NCBI RefSeq assembly: GCF_032163395.1
Contig: NZ_CP119968.1
Span: forward strand, 1,039,501 to 1,103,500
Reading direction: 5' to 3'
Length of the DNA: 64,000 nucleotides
Source of the DNA: Gloeocapsopsis dulcis
GTDB lineage: Bacteria > Cyanobacteriota > Cyanobacteriia > Cyanobacteriales > Chroococcidiopsidaceae
The position numbers were made by a program, and so were the translations under genes. This document shows, piece by piece, positions 1 to 10,512 of the stretch (the first letter of the stretch is position 1; each line of letters starts with the position of its first letter). A model generated the notes under the pieces. That model was not told the origin of the DNA and did not search any database. It saw only the letters and a program-made list of their open reading frames with translations.

Positions 1-2636
1 TAAACCCAGTATTACGCGATCGCACTCTCCGCGCTCTTTCCGATTTAACCTGTTTAGCTGATTCCTTAGCTTCTATCATCAAACATCCTCAGGATGCTGA
101 AAATACAAGGCTAAATGAGTTAATTCATAGCCTGAGTGATGGACAACTAAAATTTACTTACCACAGCATTGCGGAGAACCGAGGCGTACTCACCAACGTA
201 GTAAATAACGCTTTGATGGAGGCTCACGTCAGCCTTAATACTCAGAACTGCGCCTACTATGAACCACTGCTCTATCTACCAACTGGTGTAATCTACTTGG
301 CACAACGGGACGCACCCTCTGTACAAGTTGAAGATTTACCAGAACGGGTTGTTAACAAGATTAAGCAATTCTGTGCCAGTCAGCTACGTCTGCGACAAAC
401 AGGCTTTGGCAGAGATGGCAAGGGGATGAAATATGCCGAGTACTACAATCTGTTTTTTGATGCTCCAGATTTAATGCGAGTTGCTCTGGATGCTACTTTA
501 CGCATTTTAAGAACTGGAAAGAGTTCGGTTGCAAAAAGCCGCAGTGATAATCTCATCAAATTTCAGCAACAGAATGTTTTATCGGCTGATTATAACTTTG
601 AGTTTACTGACGATATTCGCATTGACCAAATTGCAGAGTTTGGAGACTTAATTAGCCGCAAAATTTGGGGAGAACAAGTAAAGCAAATCGAAGCGGAACG
701 GAAGAAGGACAAAAAACTCCCTACAATACCCCATCTAGATATTGTCGAAGAAATTGCCAAATTCTGGAATTTGTCGGAGTACCTACTCCCTATCCGAGAA
801 ATCCAACGAATCAATGAAAGTCTGAAGGAACACAAGCTAAAGGGTAATACTGGTGGCGTTCCCTACGAATGGTATTACTTAGGCGCAAAGTATCTAGAAC
901 GTCACCCAGGACTTGAGGATGTGCGGGAGATTTGTCAGGATGCGATCGCCTACATTTCCCAACTCATTAAACCCACCGTTGTACAGTACAAACTGCCTGA
1001 TGGTTGGGACGATTTGCGATTGTGGGTGACACGGGTTGTCATGCTACCCGGAAAAGCTACATCTGTCACAACATCTGCTGAAGTATTCTTACAAGAGTTA
1101 TCAGGTTATCAATTAGCTAAAAAACCGGGGAGAGGACGACAGCTAATCTGTTCTATTTCTCATTCTCCTTATACGGTAACTGAGCAGATGGAGTCAGCCG
1201 TGTTATTCACCCCTCAGGTTTATACCAATAAACAAATGCTGGGAGGTTCTAACGCTAAACGCAATATTTCTAGCATTGCTGGCATTGAAATGATGCTGCG
1301 GCAAATTTTGATGAATCAAACTCAAGCAGTGGGTAAAAGATTTGAGGATGGTAAGTATCGCTATCTCTATTTCTATCCGACTTATTACTTCACGCCAGAG
1401 ACTAACAAGTTTCTGCAAAAGGCGTACAATGGTATTGCTCAAACTCGCTTTGATACCAGCATCCGCAATCACTTCATTAGTAAGGATTTGCAAGCGAACT
1501 TAGAACGCGATCGCTATCAAAGTGTTGATGCTTTCCTAATTAACGAAAATATCGAATCTGGCAAAGACCGTACCTTCAAACTGTCCTATCCAGAAGACCA
1601 ACCTTTGACATTTTACTTCATGGCGCTACCTCCTGGTCGAGATGGCACTGATACCGAATCTTGGGTAATGCCAAGTTGGTTAGCGTTTGCGTTTCCAATG
1701 ATTCTGGATGTCAAGACGGTAGTTTCAGAGTCACCCATTCCCCCATTTAATGATGGTGCAGAGTTTGAGGAAAGTGTCTTTCTTGATAGTGCGCCACAGG
1801 CATTTAGGGTGTTGACGAAACGCGATCGCTTCCGTCTTGATTACATCCTTGAAGGATGGACGGAAGACAGTAAAGAATATTCCGCACCACTTAATCTGCT
1901 AACAGCCGCCTATGCTATTCACCTTGATGTTAATGCTAGACAGGGTAAATCTGGTTATGACTCTAACTGGGGACGTTTTACTGAACTGGCAAAGGATTTT
2001 GAAACCAGTCCACTCTATGTATTTAGCTACCTAAATCGATGGGTGCGTAACCAAAACGTTGAAACGGCACGAATTGAGAAAATAAAGCTTTATGCTTACC
2101 ACTTTTACCCCTGTTTTGACCCTTATGCCAAATTTAACCCGGAAATGGAGGAATTAATTGTGGGAGAAGAATCATCTTTAAATCACCCCCAAAAGCTGAC
2201 TGAACTTTATCGCCAATTCTACCGAGCAAATAAGCGATATAACCCCAAAGCAAATGCAGTATTAAAACCTATTGATATTGCATCAAAAACAATTCTTGAA
2301 GCTGACACAAGTTTTCAGGGTGAAGCCTTAGTTACTGTTGTTGCGGCTGAAGTCTTCAAGTTAATGGATCGGGTTCATGCTTCCACAGCAGAGGGACATT
2401 GGATCTTCAAGAATCGCGAAGAAGAACGACAGGCAATTTTAGACTTTGCTCGGTACTTTGTGAAGGAAGTTTTTGAAAATTCTTTTGCAGGCGATCGCGC
2501 TCGTTTAGCAGGTCGTCAAATTAACCTAATTAAAGACACTTGTGAGTTTCTATACCGACTAGAGGATGACAGAGAAAATCGCGCTAGAAATAGTGACCAA
2601 TCAACTGATAACTCCCCGAATGAAGCTGAAGAATAA
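1..2636 (+). CDS. cas10d: Type I-D CRISPR large subunit Cas10d (Csc3), 5' partial
   Basis: The frame is open from base 3 to the stop at 2636 with no interruption, so the gene begins left of the window; about 877 residues are visible. In type I-D the protein is the large subunit of the Cascade-like effector and carries the N-terminal HD nuclease. That N-terminal part lies outside the window, since full-length family members are roughly 950-1100 residues. The assignment rests on overall resemblance to Csc3/Cas10d and on the adjacent csc2 and csc1, which are diagnostic of subtype I-D. The nearest internal starts, TTG at 213 and ATG at 216, are not the real start because upstream codons continue as protein-like sequence. 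A cas3' helicase gene is expected further left. Confidence 0.9.
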   Translation, partial: NPVLRDRTLRALSDLTCLADSLASIIKHPQDAENTRLNELIHSLSDGQLKFTYHSIAENRGVLTNVVNNALMEAHVSLNTQNCAYYEPLLYLPTGVIYLAQRDAPSVQVEDLPERVVNKIKQFCASQLRLRQTGFGRDGKGMKYAEYYNLFFDAPDLMRVALDATLRILRTGKSSVAKSRSDNLIKFQQQNVLSADYNFEFTDDIRIDQIAEFGDLISRKIWGEQVKQIEAERKKDKKLPTIPHLDIVEEIAKFWNLSEYLLPIREIQRINESLKEHKLKGNTGGVPYEWYYLGAKYLERHPGLEDVREICQDAIAYISQLIKPTVVQYKLPDGWDDLRLWVTRVVMLPGKATSVTTSAEVFLQELSGYQLAKKPGRGRQLICSISHSPYTVTEQMESAVLFTPQVYTNKQMLGGSNAKRNISSIAGIEMMLRQILMNQTQAVGKRFEDGKYRYLYFYPTYYFTPETNKFLQKAYNGIAQTRFDTSIRNHFISKDLQANLERDRYQSVDAFLINENIESGKDRTFKLSYPEDQPLTFYFMALPPGRDGTDTESWVMPSWLAFAFPMILDVKTVVSESPIPPFNDGAEFEESVFLDSAPQAFRVLTKRDRFRLDYILEGWTEDSKEYSAPLNLLTAAYAIHLDVNARQGKSGYDSNWGRFTELAKDFETSPLYVFSYLNRWVRNQNVETARIEKIKLYAYHFYPCFDPYAKFNPEMEELIVGEESSLNHPQKLTELYRQFYRANKRYNPKANAVLKPIDIASKTILEADTSFQGEALVTVVAAEVFKLMDRVHASTAEGHWIFKNREEERQAILDFARYFVKEVFENSFAGDRARLAGRQINLIKDTCEFLYRLEDDRENRARNSDQSTDNSPNEAEE

Positions 2637-2684: not shown

Positions 2685-3725
2685 ATGTCTTTTTTAAAAA
2701 CAATTGATCAAAAGTTTTTTCTTACAGAAATTCCCTACAAACCAATGGGGAAATATGCCCACTTCATCACGTTGAGAGTAACTGAATCCTATCCTCTATT
2801 TCAAACAGATGGAGAACTCAATAAAGCACGAGTGAGAGCAGGAGTAAAACTTGAAAACCATGTTCCTATTAGCCGCCTTACCATGTTCAAGCGTAAGCAA
2901 TCTACTCCAGAACGTTTAGTGGGTCGGGAGTTACTAAGAAACTATGGATTGATGACCGCTGAGGAGTGTGAATATAATGTAAATTTCGCCATGAACAATC
3001 CTGACTGTATTATTTACGGATTTGCGATTGGTGACTCTGGTTCTGAGAAATCTAAAGTAGTAGTTGATACGGCATTTTCAATTACAGCTTTTGATGAATC
3101 TCACGAAACTTTCACGCTCAATGCTCCGTTTGAAAATGGCACGATGGCATCTAAGGGAGAAGGCGCCTCTAAACCAGGAGAAGTTACAAGTCGGATCAAT
3201 CAACAAGACCATATCAAACCCCAAATCTTTTTCCCTAGTATTGTTACTTTAAAAGATCCCACAGAGGCGGGTTTCCTGTATGTCTTTAACAACATTCTCA
3301 GAACTCGACACTATGGCGCTCAAACTACCCGTACAGGTCGAGTCAGGAATGAATTAATTGGCGTGGTATTTGCAGACGGTGAAATTACGAGTAACCTCCG
3401 CTGGACACAGGCAATTTATGACAAACTGCAAGCTGAAAATAAACTGAATTACCGCGATCCGCTTAATGAGGATGATGTGATTGCGGCTGCTATCAGTGCC
3501 ATTGAAACATTAATGTCTGAGGAGTTTATTGTGCATACTGATTTTGTTGGCGCTAACTTTACTCCTGTGTTAAATGAAGTCAAGGCTTTAACAGGAAGTG
3601 AAGCAGGTATCAAGCAAATTTTGCAGCAGGCTGATGCAGAAGCTAAAGTCTACTATAAAAATCACATGAAGCAGAAGCCTGAAGGTGATAAAGCAAAGGC
3701 TGGAAAAGCAACGAAGGCAGGGTAA
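2685..3725 (+). CDS. csc2: Type I-D Cas7 backbone protein Csc2
   Basis: The 346-residue protein matches Csc2, the Cas7-family RRM-fold subunit that polymerises along the crRNA and contacts target DNA in the type I-D effector. It starts 48 bases after cas10d with a GGAG ribosome-binding site about ten bases before the ATG. The N-terminal part includes the typical aromatic segment after the first beta strand (FLTEIPYKPMGKYAHF). The C-terminus is a Lys/Ala-rich tail (KPEGDKAKAGKATKAG) that looks disordered. The next gene, csc1, follows after 5 bases, so the two are surely co-transcribed. Confidence 0.93.
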   Translation: MSFLKTIDQKFFLTEIPYKPMGKYAHFITLRVTESYPLFQTDGELNKARVRAGVKLENHVPISRLTMFKRKQSTPERLVGRELLRNYGLMTAEECEYNVNFAMNNPDCIIYGFAIGDSGSEKSKVVVDTAFSITAFDESHETFTLNAPFENGTMASKGEGASKPGEVTSRINQQDHIKPQIFFPSIVTLKDPTEAGFLYVFNNILRTRHYGAQTTRTGRVRNELIGVVFADGEITSNLRWTQAIYDKLQAENKLNYRDPLNEDDVIAAAISAIETLMSEEFIVHTDFVGANFTPVLNEVKALTGSEAGIKQILQQADAEAKVYYKNHMKQKPEGDKAKAGKATKAG

Positions 3726-3730
3726 CAGCA

Positions 3731-4438
3731 ATGGCAATTATTCATCGCTGTCAGCTAGAGTTGCACGATAGTCTTTATTATGCAACTCGTGAAATTGGGC
3801 GTTTGTATGAAACAGAACCAGTGATTCACAATTATGCGCTTTGTTATGCACTGGGGTTGGTCGATAGTGAAGTCTATTCTACTCGCGTTTCCGAAGAACA
3901 CTCATATCGCTACTTTTGCCCTGAACAAGTCCCTAAATATGAGGAGCATTTAACGCCTCTCAATCAACAAGGAATATACATTACTCCAGCGCGATCGCTT
4001 TCCCATGCTGCGGTTCTCCATACCTGGAAATATGCTGATAACCGCTACCACGTCGAAATGGAAAAAACACAGAAAAATATTCCTAGTTTTGGGAGAGCAA
4101 AAGAAATTGCGCCTGAAAGTAGATTTGAGTTCTTCGCCATCGCGGAAAAACCTTTGAAACTACCCCGATGGATTCGCTTAGGTAAGTGGATGAGTAAAGC
4201 AGAAGTAACAGTTAAAGAACTTCCTCTAACCAAGCGATCGCCAGGAGACTTTACTGTTTCTTTTCCGCTCAATCCTCTAGATGTGATGTTTTCCTATCGA
4301 GTTCTGAGTTATGACACTATTAATATGCCACCTGTGAGTCTAATTCGGAATGTGCGCTTGCACGGTGAATTTTATAGCTTTGAGAAGAGTAATCTAAAAG
4401 TTCCTGCTCAAATGCAGTATTGCTTCAGAGGTTCATAA
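3731..4438 (+). CDS. csc1: Type I-D Cas5 protein Csc1
   Basis: This 235-residue protein is the Cas5-family subunit of type I-D, expected to cap the 5' handle of the crRNA in the effector. Recognition is by similarity to Csc1 (start MAIIHRCQLELHDSLYYATREIG is family-typical; only part quoted here as a landmark: LHDSLYYATREIG) and by position directly after csc2 with a 5-base gap. No nuclease residues are evident, as expected for a structural Cas5 that leaves crRNA processing to Cas6. The stop is followed by about 50 bases before the oxygenase gene, the widest gap between genes in this operon apart from the 48 bases before csc2. Confidence 0.9.
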   Translation: MAIIHRCQLELHDSLYYATREIGRLYETEPVIHNYALCYALGLVDSEVYSTRVSEEHSYRYFCPEQVPKYEEHLTPLNQQGIYITPARSLSHAAVLHTWKYADNRYHVEMEKTQKNIPSFGRAKEIAPESRFEFFAIAEKPLKLPRWIRLGKWMSKAEVTVKELPLTKRSPGDFTVSFPLNPLDVMFSYRVLSYDTINMPPVSLIRNVRLHGEFYSFEKSNLKVPAQMQYCFRGS

Positions 4439-4487
4439 CAGTAAACTTTATTGATAAATAGTTGGGCAATCGCCCCGTAAATCAATT

Positions 4488-5105
4488 TTGAAATACTATC
4501 ATCAACACCCCAATGCCTTTCTCAGCAATTACCTCAAGGATCTGTGCGGAGAGATTCAAGCTTGCCCTTACTTTGCTATCAATAACCTCAACCGCGACTT
4601 TGTAAATACCAAGGGATTTTCGGTGGTATTTCAGCGAGCGCAATTAACAAAAGTAAAGCAGCAGTTTCCCTTCTTCAAGCCTTATCTAGATCTAGCTCTT
4701 CAGCCAAATTGTAATGCTTTTTATCTCAATCCTTTACTGCTAAAAGCAGGCTCCCGTGTCGATCCGCACATTGATCGCTCCTTGCGTTCCTACTGCAAAA
4801 CCATTGAACCGCCTGCAATCGTTAGCGTTCTTTATGTTCAAGTACCACCCAATCTGGAGGGGGGAGAACTAATATTGCACTCTCAAAAACGCCAAGTTGG
4901 AAAGATTAAGCCGCAAACGAATACCTTGCTTTACTTTCAGGGTGACTTAACCCATTCTGTTAATGTTGTGAAAACTTCAGGAACTCGCCTTAGCTTAGTT
5001 TGCGAACAGTATAGTTTGAGCGAGGCTGAACTTTCGGAAATCCCCCAGTTTAATGTGGAGTCAAGAGCTACTCAGTCCAGAACGAAGAAGAGATATGCCT
5101 CATAG
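4488..5105 (+). CDS. 2-oxoglutarate/Fe(II)-dependent oxygenase within the cas operon
   Basis: The 205-residue protein has the double-stranded beta-helix metal triad of 2OG-Fe(II) dioxygenases: HxD at H94-I-D96 (context DPHIDRS), distal H156 (DLTHSV), and R167 (GTRLSLV) placed to bind 2-oxoglutarate; GGEL at 125-128 is also typical of the prolyl-hydroxylase-like group. Substrates in this superfamily include proteins, nucleic acid bases and small molecules; none can be inferred here. The gene sits between csc1 and cas6 on the same strand and its last 11 bases overlap the cas6 start, so it is translationally linked to the cas operon. The only start available is TTG at 4488: an in-frame stop lies at 4455 and no ATG or GTG precedes the conserved core. 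Function in CRISPR immunity is unknown to me. Confidence 0.85.
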   Translation: MKYYHQHPNAFLSNYLKDLCGEIQACPYFAINNLNRDFVNTKGFSVVFQRAQLTKVKQQFPFFKPYLDLALQPNCNAFYLNPLLLKAGSRVDPHIDRSLRSYCKTIEPPAIVSVLYVQVPPNLEGGELILHSQKRQVGKIKPQTNTLLYFQGDLTHSVNVVKTSGTRLSLVCEQYSLSEAELSEIPQFNVESRATQSRTKKRYAS

Positions 5106-5916
5106 CTTAGTTTTGAATCTCCTGCCTCAGTCACCAATTTACCCCGCATACCTTAGTGGAAGACATCTCCACGCCCTATTTTTAACGCTTGTGAGTTCGG
5201 TAGATAAAACATTGGGCGATCGCCTCCATGCTTCCATTGCAGACAAAGCCTTTACTCTTAGCCCTTTACAAGCAAATAAATCAAAACACAACTTGCAATG
5301 GGAACATCAACAACCTATCCCTGCTGGTACTCCTTGCTGGTGGAGAATTTCTTTACTCGATGACACTTTATTTAGCAAACTTACCCAACTATGGCTCAAT
5401 CTCAATCCCAAACATCCTTGGCATCTTGGTTCGGCTGACTTATACATTACCAGCATTTTAGGTACTCCCCAATCAACGCAACCTTGGGCAAATGCGACTA
5501 CTTACGCGCAATTATACGAGCAGGCTTCTGATTCTGAACGCGAAGTTGCCTTTCGCTTTTACACTCCCACCTGCTTTCGTCAAGGTGAATTTGATGCTGC
5601 TTTGCCTACAAGAGAATGCGTGTTTAATAGCCTACTCAATCGTTGGCAAAAGTACAGTGGTATTGAGTTTGAACCTAATCTAACACCAGTTATCTTCCCC
5701 AGTTACTTCAATATTTCTACTACGATGGTTGCAGATTCTCGCAGTAAATTTATTGGCTGCATTGGAGAAATCACCTATCGAATTTTAGGCGAATTCGATC
5801 CAATAATTATTAAACAAATTAATGCCCTAGCTGATTTCGCTCTCTACTGCGGTGCAGGTAGAAAAACAACTATGGGAATGGGAATGCTGCGGAGAATTAG
5901 AATTACCAAAAAATGA
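5095..5916 (+). CDS. cas6: CRISPR pre-crRNA endoribonuclease Cas6
   Basis: Cas6 cuts the repeat RNA to release crRNAs. The C-terminal glycine-rich loop GAGRKTTMGMG is the family hallmark, and the two-domain RAMP layout fits the 273-residue length. The reading frame is open from 5053, but ATG 5095 is preferred because it is preceded by a purine-rich AAGAAGAG site and gives the family-typical N-terminus MPHSLVLNLLPQ. It overlaps the oxygenase gene by 11 bases. Cas6 of this system should recognise the 37-base repeat downstream. The catalytic histidine cannot be assigned with certainty; a candidate is in the N-terminal SGRHLHALF stretch. Confidence 0.92.
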   Translation: MPHSLVLNLLPQSPIYPAYLSGRHLHALFLTLVSSVDKTLGDRLHASIADKAFTLSPLQANKSKHNLQWEHQQPIPAGTPCWWRISLLDDTLFSKLTQLWLNLNPKHPWHLGSADLYITSILGTPQSTQPWANATTYAQLYEQASDSEREVAFRFYTPTCFRQGEFDAALPTRECVFNSLLNRWQKYSGIEFEPNLTPVIFPSYFNISTTMVADSRSKFIGCIGEITYRILGEFDPIIIKQINALADFALYCGAGRKTTMGMGMLRRIRITKK

Positions 5917-5926
5917 TCGCAAGAAT

Positions 5927-6520
5927 ATGCATGATACTGATTATATTCCGATTGCTGCGCTCAATCAATATACCTACTGTCCGCATCGATGTTGGCGGAT
6001 GTTTTGTGCAGGTGAATTTAGCGATAATCAATACACAATTGAAGGAACTAGCTTACACGATCGCGTCCACACATTAGGAGATGGACACCGTGAAGAAACT
6101 TGGCAAATTCGCGCCATTTGGTTGAAATCTGAACGCTACGGTTTAATTGGCAAAGCTGATTTAATTGAAGCCACTGACGGTCATTTCTACCCAATTGAAT
6201 ATAAACGCGGACGGAAAGGAGAATGGGATAACGATGAAATGCAAGTTACGGCACAGGCGCTTTGCTTAGAAGATATGACGGGTTCACCTGTAACGCAAGG
6301 GTATATTTACTACGCCCAGTCGCATCAACGTCAACTAGTCGAAATAACGCAAGAATTACGAGTAGGTGCGATCGCCACTATTAAAGCTGTTCATAGTTTA
6401 CTTGAAACGGGCAAAATGCCACCAGCGATATATAGCCAACGTTGCACTGGTTGTAGTCTATATTCGCATTGTTTACCACAAGCTATAGCGAAAGTTCAAC
6501 GTTATCAAGAAGCCAGTTAA
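5927..6520 (+). CDS. cas4: CRISPR adaptation nuclease Cas4
   Basis: Cas4 is a RecB-family nuclease that trims prespacers and helps set PAM and orientation. The 197-residue protein shows the N-terminal iron-sulfur cysteines (YCPHRC) and the C-terminal cysteine group (CTGCSLYSHC), together four ligands for a 4Fe-4S cluster, with the nuclease motifs GKADLIE, PIEYKRG and QVTAQA between them. The ATG at 5927 was chosen over upstream in-frame starts because those overlap the conserved end of cas6 and encode non-family sequence. It begins 10 bases after cas6 and ends 17 bases before cas1. Confidence 0.93.
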   Translation: MHDTDYIPIAALNQYTYCPHRCWRMFCAGEFSDNQYTIEGTSLHDRVHTLGDGHREETWQIRAIWLKSERYGLIGKADLIEATDGHFYPIEYKRGRKGEWDNDEMQVTAQALCLEDMTGSPVTQGYIYYAQSHQRQLVEITQELRVGAIATIKAVHSLLETGKMPPAIYSQRCTGCSLYSHCLPQAIAKVQRYQEAS

Positions 6521-6537
6521 TTTGAGTCTTAATCAAT

Positions 6538-7542
6538 ATGGGAACAGTTTACATTACACAACAAGATGCTTTTATTGGTAAAACTGACGAGCGCTTGAGT
6601 ATCAAAGCTAATAAACAAATACTGTTAGATGTACCATTAATTAAAGTAGATGGTGTTGTTATTTTAGGACGCGCTACAGTTTCTCCGGCTGCTATTTCAG
6701 AATTTTTAGAACGTCAAATTCCTTTAAGTTTCCTCACAGCTACAGGGAAATATCTTGGGCGTTTAGAACCTGAAGTCACTAAAAATATTTTTGTTCGTAA
6801 AGCACAATGGCAAGCTATCGGTGAATCTGTACAAGCAGTACACATCGTCAAAGGTTTTGTACGAGGCAAACTCAAAAATTACCGCAATGCATTATTACGC
6901 GCCCAACGATCAAGTTCAGAACTTGACCTAAATAATAGTATCATGCGCTTAGAACAAGCGATCGCACCAATCGAGAACACCAACACAATTCCTTCATTAC
7001 GTGGTTTAGAAGGTGCGGGTAGTGCTGCATATTTTGGTAGCTTGAATCAACTCATTCGCGTCGAAGGCTTTACTTTTACAGCTAGACGCCGGAGACCTCC
7101 GACTGACGCTGTTAATGCTTTACTAAGTTTAGGCTATGCTTTACTTCGCCATGACGTGCAAAGTGCGGTAAATATTGTAGGATTTGATGCTTATCTAGGA
7201 TATCTGCACGTCGAACGTTACGGTCGTCCTTCGTTAGCATTAGACTTGATGGAAGAATTTCGACCTTTAGTTGTCGATGCAATTGTGTTATCTGCGTTGA
7301 ACAAGCGATCGCTGCTACCAACAGATTTCACCACCGAACCGCTAAGTAATGCTGTATCGCTGACTCAAGAGGGATTAAGAACATTTTTGCGGTTGTACGA
7401 ACAGAAGAAACAATCTAAATTTAAGCATCCGGTATTAGGGCGACAGTGTACATACCAAGAAGCATTTGAAATCCAAGCACGGTTATTAGCAAAGTACTTA
7501 ATGTGTGAAACAGATAAGTATCCTCCTTTGGTACTGAAGTAG
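6538..7542 (+). CDS. cas1: CRISPR integrase Cas1
   Basis: Cas1 forms the integrase that inserts new spacers. The 334-residue protein has the expected metal residues: E158 in GLEGAGSAAYFG, H224 in LHVERYGRPS and an acidic residue at about 239 in LDLMEEFRP. Length and sequence match the type I-D/I-B-like Cas1 branch. It lies between cas4 and cas2 in the usual adaptation order, with gaps of 17 and 13 bases. Confidence 0.96.
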   Translation: MGTVYITQQDAFIGKTDERLSIKANKQILLDVPLIKVDGVVILGRATVSPAAISEFLERQIPLSFLTATGKYLGRLEPEVTKNIFVRKAQWQAIGESVQAVHIVKGFVRGKLKNYRNALLRAQRSSSELDLNNSIMRLEQAIAPIENTNTIPSLRGLEGAGSAAYFGSLNQLIRVEGFTFTARRRRPPTDAVNALLSLGYALLRHDVQSAVNIVGFDAYLGYLHVERYGRPSLALDLMEEFRPLVVDAIVLSALNKRSLLPTDFTTEPLSNAVSLTQEGLRTFLRLYEQKKQSKFKHPVLGRQCTYQEAFEIQARLLAKYLMCETDKYPPLVLK

Positions 7543-7555
7543 AGGAGATGATCAA

Positions 7556-7825
7556 ATGTATATTGTTGTGTCTTACGACGTTTCCGAGGACAAGCGTCGC
7601 ACCAAGATTCACTCGATTCTCAAATCTTACGGTCAGTGGGTACAATACAGTATTTTTGAATGTAACTTAACTGATAGTCAGTATGCGAGAATGCGATCGC
7701 GTTTATCTAAAGTTATCAAAGCCGAAGACAGCATTCGATTCTACTTTCTGTGTGGATGTTGTCAAGGTAAAGTAGAAAGACTTGGTGGAGAACAACCACG
7801 CGATGAAACAATCTTTTTTGCTTAG
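7556..7825 (+). CDS. cas2: CRISPR adaptation protein Cas2
   Basis: Cas2 bridges Cas1 dimers in the adaptation complex. The 89-residue ferredoxin-fold protein begins with the characteristic beta strand and aspartate (IVVSYDV, D8) followed by DKRR. A strong site, AGAGGAGATGATCAA, precedes the ATG. It is the last cas gene; the leader and array start 264 bases downstream. Confidence 0.95.
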   Translation: MYIVVSYDVSEDKRRTKIHSILKSYGQWVQYSIFECNLTDSQYARMRSRLSKVIKAEDSIRFYFLCGCCQGKVERLGGEQPRDETIFFA

Positions 7826-8089
7826 GCAAAACATTATTTGCGCGGAAGGGTAGCTGTTTATCCCAGCTAGACTTTAAAAAAGTCACGAAAGCTTTTATAC
7901 AGAAGCCTTACAAGTCCCTTTATCCTATCTTTAGATCCGCGCAACTTCTCAAACGCTTATCAGATATAACTTATCGCTTGTAACCCCACTTATTTTATCT
8001 GTGTTTTTGACTTTAAATGCTATAGTTATGACTATATCGCGCAACTGCACCATGAAAACCACATACTGTAAGCCTTTCAGCTACCTGCG
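7826..8089 (+). promoter_or_regulatory. CRISPR leader region
   Basis: These 264 bases contain no gene and join cas2 to the first perfect repeat. The stretch nearest the array is AT-rich (the TTTATCTGTGTTTTTGAC and TATAGTTATGACTATA segments), as expected of a leader that carries the array promoter and the integration site. Placement at this side is supported by the repeats: all mismatched copies are at the opposite end. No promoter was mapped. Confidence 0.7.
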
Positions 8090-9720
8090 ATTTCAATTAA
8101 CATAAATCCTTATCAGGGATTGAAACCGCTGCAACGTGGATATAAACCCTTCTCCTTGGATATTTCAATTAACATAAATCCTTATCAGGGATTGAAACCT
8201 TCCTGCTGCTGAGTTGGTAAAAGCTTCTCTTTATTTCAATTAACATAAATCCTTATCAGGGATTGAAACCTTAAAGTCGTGAAACCTAGAACGTACATAG
8301 TCAACATTTCAATTAACATAAATCCTTATCAGGGATTGAAACTTTTCGCTGCACAGTAACATTTGAGATTATCAAGATTTCAATTAACATAAATCCTTAT
8401 CAGGGATTGAAACTTCATTTGTAGCTTGCAGTTGTGTTGCTGGCTACTATTTCAATTAACATAAATCCTTATCAGGGATTGAAACACTGCTGCTTCCCCT
8501 GCTGCAAGTGCTGGTCTTGTTATTTCAATTAACATAAATCCTTATCAGGGATTGAAACAAGAAATACACTAACCGAACCATGAAAACCAAAAAATTTCAA
8601 TTAACATAAATCCTTATCAGGGATTGAAACGCAAATCTCCCATTCACGCGTTTTCTGATCATATATTTCAATTAACATAAATCCTTATCAGGGATTGAAA
8701 CTCTGCTTTATTAAAATATAATTTATCAGAAATTAATTTCAATTAACATAAATCCTTATCAGGGATTGAAACTCTAAACTGAATATCAACTTGCGTGTCA
8801 AATTGATTTCAATTAACATAAATCCTTATCAGGGATTGAAACTAAACTCTGGTGCAAGCATAAGCTGGTACAGTTTATTTCAATTAACATAAATCCTTAT
8901 CAGGGATTGAAACAAAACTTCATCTGATTCCGGTGAATTTGCTGAAGGCATTTCAATTAACATAAATCCTTATCAGGGATTGAAACTACTAGGCATAGCG
9001 GGATTAGAAAGAAAGATTATGCCATTTCAATTAACATAAATCCTTATCAGGGATTGAAACGCGATTATGGTGATCGGTCAAAAACTGACTGTCGCCATTT
9101 CAATTAACATAAATCCTTATCAGGGATTGAAACAAATCGCTGCAAGAACTTCTTAAAACAGTCGGTTATTTCAATTAACATAAATCCTTATCAGGGATTG
9201 AAACTTGCGATCGTGCGGAATTAATCAGCAATTGAATTTCATCCATTTCAATTAACATAAATCCTTATCAGGGATTGAAACGCTTAGGTGTGGTGGTATT
9301 ACTGCCCTAGCTTCTTATTTCAATTAACATAAATCCTTATCAGGGATTGAAACGAGGTTCGGCTTTCCTGCCAGCACAAATAGCAATTATTTCAATTAAC
9401 ATAAATCCTTATCAGGGATTGAAACTTCACAGTACCTCAACTCTATACTCTCAGAAGAAGAATTTCAATTAACATAAATCCTTATCAGGGATTGAAACTC
9501 TAGCCGCCGCTTATGGCAAGTGCGATAGAGGTACCCATATTTCAATTAACATAAATCCTTATCAGGGATTGAAACATATAAAGCAGTGTAGTTTTCTGTG
9601 TATAAGTTCATATTTCAATTAACATAAATCCTTATCAGGGATTGAAACTGAGTACCTAGGCTTTCAAGTATCGGCAGTCGTTTATTTCAATTAACATAAA
9701 TCCTGATCAAGGATTGAAAC
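8090..9720 (+). CRISPR. Type I-D CRISPR array, 23 repeats and 22 spacers
   Basis: The repeat is 37 bases, beginning ATTTCAATTAAC and ending GGGATTGAAAC. I count 23 copies, at 8090, 8162, 8233, 8306, 8377, 8449, 8522, 8594, 8665, 8736, 8806, 8877, 8950, 9024, 9097, 9168, 9245, 9317, 9389, 9462, 9539, 9612 and 9684. Spacers are 33-40 bases, all different. The first 22 copies look identical; the last (9684) has two changes (CTGATCAAGG instead of CTTATCAGGG), marking the trailer end and placing the leader at the cas2 side. The ATTGAAAC end is the usual 5' handle of crRNAs in this group. Confidence 0.98.
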
Positions 9721-9751
9721 ACTGTTTTAGATCTTCCTTGATTTTTGTAGT

Positions 9752-10156: not shown

Positions 10157-10214
10157 TACAAATTCCTTCTATAATTGCTAAAGCTGGAACTCTTCGGGGT
10201 GAAACAGCTTTAAT

Positions 10215-10401
10215 ATTTCAATTAACAAAAAAAACATCAGGGATTGAAACTTAGGATACGGTAGCAAATTTACTTGAGCTACAACAATTATTTCAATTCC
10301 CATAACAAAACCCTCTACCAGGTATTGAAACACGGCTACTAAAGCTAATGATGGTAGCGTTATAGATTTCAATTAACATAAATCCTTATCAGGATTCAAA
10401 C
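10215..10401 (+). CRISPR. Decayed three-repeat CRISPR remnant
   Basis: Three degenerate copies of the array repeat occur at 10215-10250, 10290-10331 and 10366-10401 with 39- and 34-base spacers. The first keeps ATTTCAATTAAC and CATCAGGGATTGAAAC but has a poly-A middle; the second is longer and heavily changed; the third is near-perfect except for a lost G and ATTCAAAC in place of ATTGAAAC. All share the array orientation. This looks like the oldest end of the same array, separated from it by about 500 bases. Confidence 0.8.
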
Positions 10402-10512
10402 CCATTCAATGTTATGTTTACCTGTTTCTCTTACACAACACAGTTGAGTCCAAGGCTGCGATACATCGTGAAACCCTGGACTTCGACAAACATTTCCACT
10501 CAAATAATTTTT

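Follow-up and report, generated by a model that had tools for sequence, protein, structure and literature searches.

A 2-oxoglutarate/Fe(II) oxygenase gene between csc1 and cas6 of a cyanobacterial type I-D locus: probably a cellular hydroxylase enclosed by cas genes

Does an oxygenase gene that lies between csc1 and cas6 of a type I-D CRISPR locus, and shares bases with cas6, serve the CRISPR machinery, or is it a cellular gene that cas genes have come to surround? The question is raised by a stretch of 64,000 nucleotides from Gloeocapsopsis dulcis (hereafter the window), for which an initial annotation, made from the sequence, had described an intact dioxygenase produced together with the Cas proteins and had considered a role on a Cas protein, the crRNA or phage DNA. 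The arrangement proves true and recurrent, but the evidence assembled here speaks more for a cellular hydroxylase enclosed by cas genes than for a part of the CRISPR system.

The oxygenase gene and its place in the locus

The following features were located in the window.

1..2636, plus strand: cas10d/csc3 (NCBIfam), the frame running on upstream past the window edge
2685..3725, plus strand: csc2 (cas7) (NCBIfam)
3731..4438, plus strand: csc1 (cas5) (NCBIfam)
4488..5105, plus strand: 2OG-Fe(II) oxygenase gene, 205 aa, TTG start, HxD...H...R intact, prolyl-hydroxylase-like fold model
5095..5105, plus strand: oxygenase/cas6 overlap of 11 bases, ATGCCTCATAG, common to 33 other cas-linked loci
5095..5916, plus strand: cas6, with a conserved MPHS start at 5095 (longest ORF from 5053)
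5852..6520, plus strand: cas4, given as the longest ORF; the true start may be later
6538..7542, plus strand: cas1 of I-D type (cas1_CYANO, Cas1d) (NCBIfam)
7556..7825, plus strand: cas2 (NCBIfam)
8089..9740, plus strand: CRISPR array of 23 regularly spaced repeats

The NCBIfam matches of the neighbouring genes, cas6 and cas4 included, confirmed that the oxygenase gene is flanked by csc1 and cas6 in a type I-D operon, and the 11-base overlap was recovered when cas6 was read from its conserved MPHS start. The overlap is present in 34 of the 46 distinct cas-linked loci, the window counted, and the csc1 stop and the oxygenase start are separated by 49 bases in the window. Production together with the Cas proteins was retained in a narrower form: in the window the oxygenase is plausibly co-expressed with cas6, with which it would be co-transcribed. 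A promoter scan of positions 3600-6600 returned no plus-strand site; it yielded fewer sites than shuffled sequences and was hence uninformative. Isolated CRISPR-repeat-like copies lie at 10208-10257 and 10365-10422, about 0.5 kb past the end of the array.

The ORF was assigned to the 2OG-Fe(II) oxygenase superfamily because it scores 35.3 bits (E 2.3e-8) with Pfam model PF13640 (2OG-FeII_Oxy_3), whose cut-off is 27, and because it has an HxD...H triad and a basic 2OG-binding residue. In the homologue set (127 rows, representing 121 distinct loci), H94, D96, H156 and R167 were all kept in 126 rows, the sole exception being L180, whose protein is truncated. The description of the enzyme as intact, with these four residues, was thus borne out by score and conservation alike.

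An AlphaFold model of the oxygenase (pLDDT 88.3, pTM 0.86) was searched with Foldseek, and the top PDB matches were 4iw3 and 4j25 (P. putida prolyl hydroxylase) and 6t8m (Dictyostelium PHD), with E-values of 3e-8 to 9e-8. The predicted fold appears nearest to the prolyl hydroxylases of P4H/PHD type, a moderate likeness with TM-scores of about 0.5-0.57. The best 50 of the 1655 fold matches were prolyl hydroxylases, PKHD/PiuC proteins and other amino-acid or small-molecule oxygenases, with no AlkB or TET protein among them. Assignment to the PKHD family (PiuC, PRK05467) was not supported, as the NCBIfam models gave 16.2 and 15.6 bits where their cut-offs are 143 and 180.

Divergent copies of the oxygenase were found at 13 loci (L102-L106 and L247-L254). 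Nif11-type leader peptides were detected nearby in 8 of these, both precursors tested matched TIGR03798, and an NHLM-type exporter is encoded in L102; csc2 and cas6 were sought in all 13 stretches and gave no match. In 11 of the 13 loci the copy lies in an operon of the order c59-oxygenase-c36-c60, which resembles a RiPP cluster type and is conserved in cyanobacteria; c36, c59 and c60 (first 200 residues) matched no NCBIfam model. The fold matches of the predicted structure, taken with the precursor peptides near the paralogues, favour peptide or protein hydroxylation as the probable activity.

Distribution, surroundings and descent

Among 100 relatives, 50 genomes gave a match, 48 of them a strong one (43 orthologues and the five divergent paralogues L102-L106), and csc2 was present in 53. 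The oxygenase adjoins csc2 in 5 of the 100, namely the window's own genome, G002, G014, G052 and G092, and 38 of the 43 orthologues do not adjoin it; tblastn with the window's Cas proteins as queries found cas genes around the oxygenase in 4 of 47 fetched loci. In the window's genus and genus g3 the gene is restricted to cas loci (G000, G002, G014) and is absent from G001, G004 and G010, of which G004 carries csc2.

Class-wide, 123 of 291 genomes matched, one of them weakly and seven by a divergent copy only. In the Nostocaceae the oxygenase was found in 153 and csc2 in 160 of 192 genomes, and at least 58 of 150 oxygenase places have a listed csc2 no more than 6 kb away. This is a lower bound, as both lists cover part of the places, that of csc2 (150 places) stemming from 141 of the 160 csc2-positive genomes. 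In all 58 the two genes are on the same strand with the oxygenase downstream, and the arrangement occurs in many genera of the family. Homologues of I-D cas genes lay within 8 kb in 43 of 79 named loci from GTDB genomes, in a search that began from the window's protein and hence favoured near relatives.

The initial annotation had named two patterns that would speak against its reading. Occurrence elsewhere without cas linkage, as often as with it, is what the relatives show, with only 5 of 43 orthologues adjoining csc2; in the Nostocaceae up to 92 of the 150 listed places likewise lie more than 6 kb from any listed csc2. Absence from nearly all other I-D loci describes the relatives, in which 5 of 53 csc2-positive genomes have the oxygenase there, but not the Nostocaceae, in which it accompanies csc2 at 58 or more of the 150 places listed for csc2. 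On these same counts the oxygenase is not a regular part of I-D loci; its cas association is real and recurrent in the Nostocaceae and in the window's lineage, though not general.

Presence of the oxygenase and of csc2 was independent in the Nostocaceae (129 genomes with both, 24 with the oxygenase alone, 31 with csc2 alone and 8 with neither; p=0.48), also after removal of the four most divergent matches (125, 24, 35 and 8; p=0.65). Across the 100 relatives the orthologue and csc2 co-occurred (30, 13, 23 and 34 in the same order; p=0.005, or 31, 17, 22 and 30 with p=0.029 when paralogues were counted), these p-values being uncorrected for kinship and genome size. A phage or plasmid origin was rejected: no match was found among 50,697 phage records, and the two among 72,556 plasmid records were cyanobacterial.

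The surroundings of cas-free copies were also compared. Outside the Nostocaceae, neighbours of the oxygenase are common within lineages and not across the whole set. A fructosamine kinase gene (PF03881) lies upstream in 17 of the 121 distinct loci, of which 15 are cas-free, and in the Nostocaceae it is mostly preceded by an M16 peptidase gene (PF00675). This pair stands upstream of the whole cas locus in three of the eight cas-linked Nostocaceae genomes whose flanks were compared (G418, G437, G433), and was not found beside the cas locus in the other five, nor in G000 or G002; in L140 and L184 the pair, the oxygenase and cas6 sequence are found all together. We read this as cas effector genes having come between kinase and oxygenase, with cas6 and the adaptation genes arriving on the oxygenase's other side. 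Some unlinked copies probably arose the other way round, by losing the cas genes that had once enclosed them, because the 3' ends of L143, L149 and L151 are like those of linked copies and these loci are nested among linked copies in the tree.

The tree was built from 116 proteins, with L180, L107, L112 and identical rows dropped and decayed loci labelled as cas-linked. The cas label required 8 changes, 6 of them forced by well supported forks, against a shuffled mean of 35.0, and a single clade of cas-linked copies was therefore rejected. The window copy groups with G002 and G014 (support 100/97), and the three together are placed beside a clade made up of Nostocaceae plus a few other copies (99/94 for the whole). 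Among those other copies are the unlinked G003, G009 and G013, which belong to the same family as the window; the family's remaining copies lie elsewhere. That the window copy descends from those of most of its family was accordingly not supported. The divergent paralogues L102-L106 form a separate clade with 100/100 support. Taken together, the tree and the shared overlap suggest that the enclosed segment goes back to a common ancestor or was transferred, and that it was not recruited independently, the transfer itself being what we infer.

Module exchange, decay and the competing readings

Effector shuffling with conserved adaptation genes and/or cas6 is described for I-D loci in a review (PMC10212523). 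In G002 and G014, csc3, csc2 and csc1 are 50-72% identical to those of the window, and the genes from the oxygenase through cas2 86-99%. Both (L061, 8234-8356; L062, 8677-8802) also have remains of the start of a second cas6 between csc1 and the oxygenase, a recombination fossil of module exchange. Six further loci (L110, L117, L119, L141, L154 and L182) carry a divergent csc2 (36-37% identical to the window's) and csc1 (29-31%) in front of the usual oxygenase-cas6-cas4-cas1; cas2 was detected in five of the six, the copy in L154 being partial. These six are I-D-like with no csc3 match; they have a gene of class c23 (about 780 aa) directly before the oxygenase and one of class c29 (666-912 aa) upstream. 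Separately, in 17 named loci (L121, L123 and L130 among them) csc1 and the oxygenase are separated by an opposite-strand ORF of class c10, which is about 136 aa long and matched nothing in Pfam; it occurs in operons and in some decayed loci.

Where cas loci have decayed, the oxygenase is intact in all eight cases (L109, L111, L127, L129, L138, L139, L140, L184), with pairwise dN/dS of 0.05-0.19, ratios that also span time before the decay. In loci with cas genes the median dN/dS was 0.077 for the oxygenase, 0.108 for cas6, 0.107 for cas4, 0.113 for cas1, 0.095 for csc1 and 0.060 for cas2. Decayed loci were found through the oxygenase search, so that a decayed oxygenase beside intact cas genes would be under-counted; the check on this was a set of 40 csc2 loci picked for having no oxygenase listed nearby, 20 from genomes with the oxygenase elsewhere and 20 from genomes without a listed place (one of the latter, G460, has a divergent match in the genome table). 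A remnant of the oxygenase was sought in all 40 and found in none. All seven other cas genes were matched in 31 of them; cas6 follows close behind csc1 in 33, lies 2.3-3.0 kb further on in the four with divergent csc2/csc1, is elsewhere in two and was not found within the stretch in one. Over residues 1-195, 39 linked rows, of which 37 are distinct, were compared with 20 unlinked copies of Nostocaceae-like type. No position sets the two groups apart, and this lack of a fixed difference gives no hint that the function has changed beside cas genes.

The reading that we prefer, at a probability of roughly 0.65, is that the oxygenase is a prolyl-hydroxylase-type peptidyl hydroxylase with a cas-independent substrate, which was enclosed by an I-D locus and has stayed with cas6-cas4-cas1-cas2. 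The relatives point to a widespread chromosomal gene surrounded by CRISPR genes, and for this reason the target is most likely some cell protein or peptide other than the CRISPR machinery. The starting state would have been a usually single-copy cyanobacterial gene for a small Fe(II)/2-oxoglutarate hydroxylase, independent of cas and acting on a peptide or protein outside CRISPR. I-D cas genes would have settled on either side of it in an organism ancestral to the cas-linked lineages, effector genes upstream and cas6-cas4-cas1-cas2-CRISPR downstream, giving the csc1-oxygenase-cas6 order and the overlap. The segment may then have been inherited, and probably also passed between lineages, with the cas6/adaptation module, while upstream effector modules would have been swapped and cas genes repeatedly lost around a kept oxygenase. 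The co-occurrence with csc2 across the relatives is the main result contrary to this reading; the persistent same-strand order with its shared overlap, and the cas-only occurrence in the window's genus and g3, also stand against it, as do the cas-linked genomes in which the peptidase/kinase pair was missing beside the cas locus and the modest TM-scores to prolyl hydroxylases.

The co-occurrence, the same-strand order with its overlap and the cas-only occurrence speak for a dedicated or co-opted I-D accessory, hydroxylating a Cas protein or oxidising crRNA or phage DNA and so tuning immunity, with Cas6 or another protein of the cas6/adaptation module as its likeliest target. Its retention with cas6-cas4-cas1 where the effectors differ and the listing of the family in PADLOC-DB as CAS-associated point the same way. 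We nevertheless consider such an accessory rather unlikely: oxygenase-free I-D loci retain their other cas genes, the enzyme's presence is independent of csc2 in the Nostocaceae, it is kept where cas genes decay, linked and unlinked copies cannot be told apart by residue, and the opposite-strand ORF comes between csc1 and the oxygenase in 17 loci. The role on Cas proteins, crRNA or phage DNA first considered thus found no support in distribution, decay or residue comparison. Improbable, too, is a variant in which a cellular peptidyl hydroxylase, its older substrate kept, would have been co-opted, in the window's lineage and in the Nostocaceae, as an I-D switch that depends on oxygen and 2-oxoglutarate and hydroxylates Cas6 or an adaptation protein; if it were true, CRISPR activity would follow oxygen and carbon/nitrogen status.

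Selection might instead keep the arrangement because a non-CRISPR enzyme between csc1 and cas6 makes large cas deletions costly. The oxygenase is indeed kept and conserved where cas is gone, there is mostly one match per genome, and many Nostocaceae genera share the arrangement; yet cas genes have been lost on either side regardless (L109, L127, L129, L138, L139, L140, L184), and 39 of 192 Nostocaceae lack a match, from which it follows that the gene is not essential. We regard such an anchoring effect as doubtful. An AlkB/TET-type dioxygenase acting on DNA or RNA would fit the superfamily and the defence setting, and these are all that speak for it; with none of that type among the best 50 of 1655 fold matches, and paralogues adjoining precursor peptides, it is very improbable.

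Relation to known systems

The PADLOC-DB model PDLC01587, '2OG', matches residues 1-194 of the oxygenase (model positions 1-194 of 195, E 3.4e-86). We take this model to derive from surveys such as Shmakov 2018 and Shah 2019. Since it is full-length and CAS-associated, the linkage is already catalogued, and the earlier statement that no experimental description was known stands with the addition that the family is listed there, without a function. No word beginning with 'oxygenase' or '2OG' occurs in the searched main text of the I-D review (PMC10212523) or of the 2025 CRISPR classification. Among the publications listed by the literature searches, none on this gene was found; the history of the enclosed gene was likewise not found in print within the literature searched.

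The locus is a warning that steady cas linkage, even with a start/stop overlap in dozens of genomes, need not imply CRISPR function: here a family catalogued as CAS-associated has the look of a cellular gene around which cas genes have closed. The locus further indicates how I-D loci recombine, with a breakpoint that parts the effector genes from the cas6/adaptation module. It draws attention, too, to a hydroxylase family that is strongly conserved in cyanobacteria and has paralogues close to RiPP precursors; no functional description of this family was found in the literature searched.

Compared with known systems, PDLC01587 (CAS-I to VI associated) is the same protein family, already catalogued as CRISPR-linked; its entry gives no function, and most orthologues among the 100 relatives are not cas-linked. 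Among solved structures, PiuC, of PKHD type, gave the best profile match (E 1.4e-3), but this match covers just about 88 residues around the oxygenase core. The paralogues near Nif11-type RiPP precursors are 41-53% identical and keep all four metal/2OG residues in 13 of 13 loci; unlike the window gene, they lie in the c59-oxygenase-c36-c60 operon (11 of 13 loci). The best fold matches, namely P. putida prolyl hydroxylase (one structure with EF-Tu), Dictyostelium PHD and HIF PHD2, have in common with the oxygenase the H-x-D...H motif with a basic residue, presumably Arg in PHD2, at 10-19% identity.
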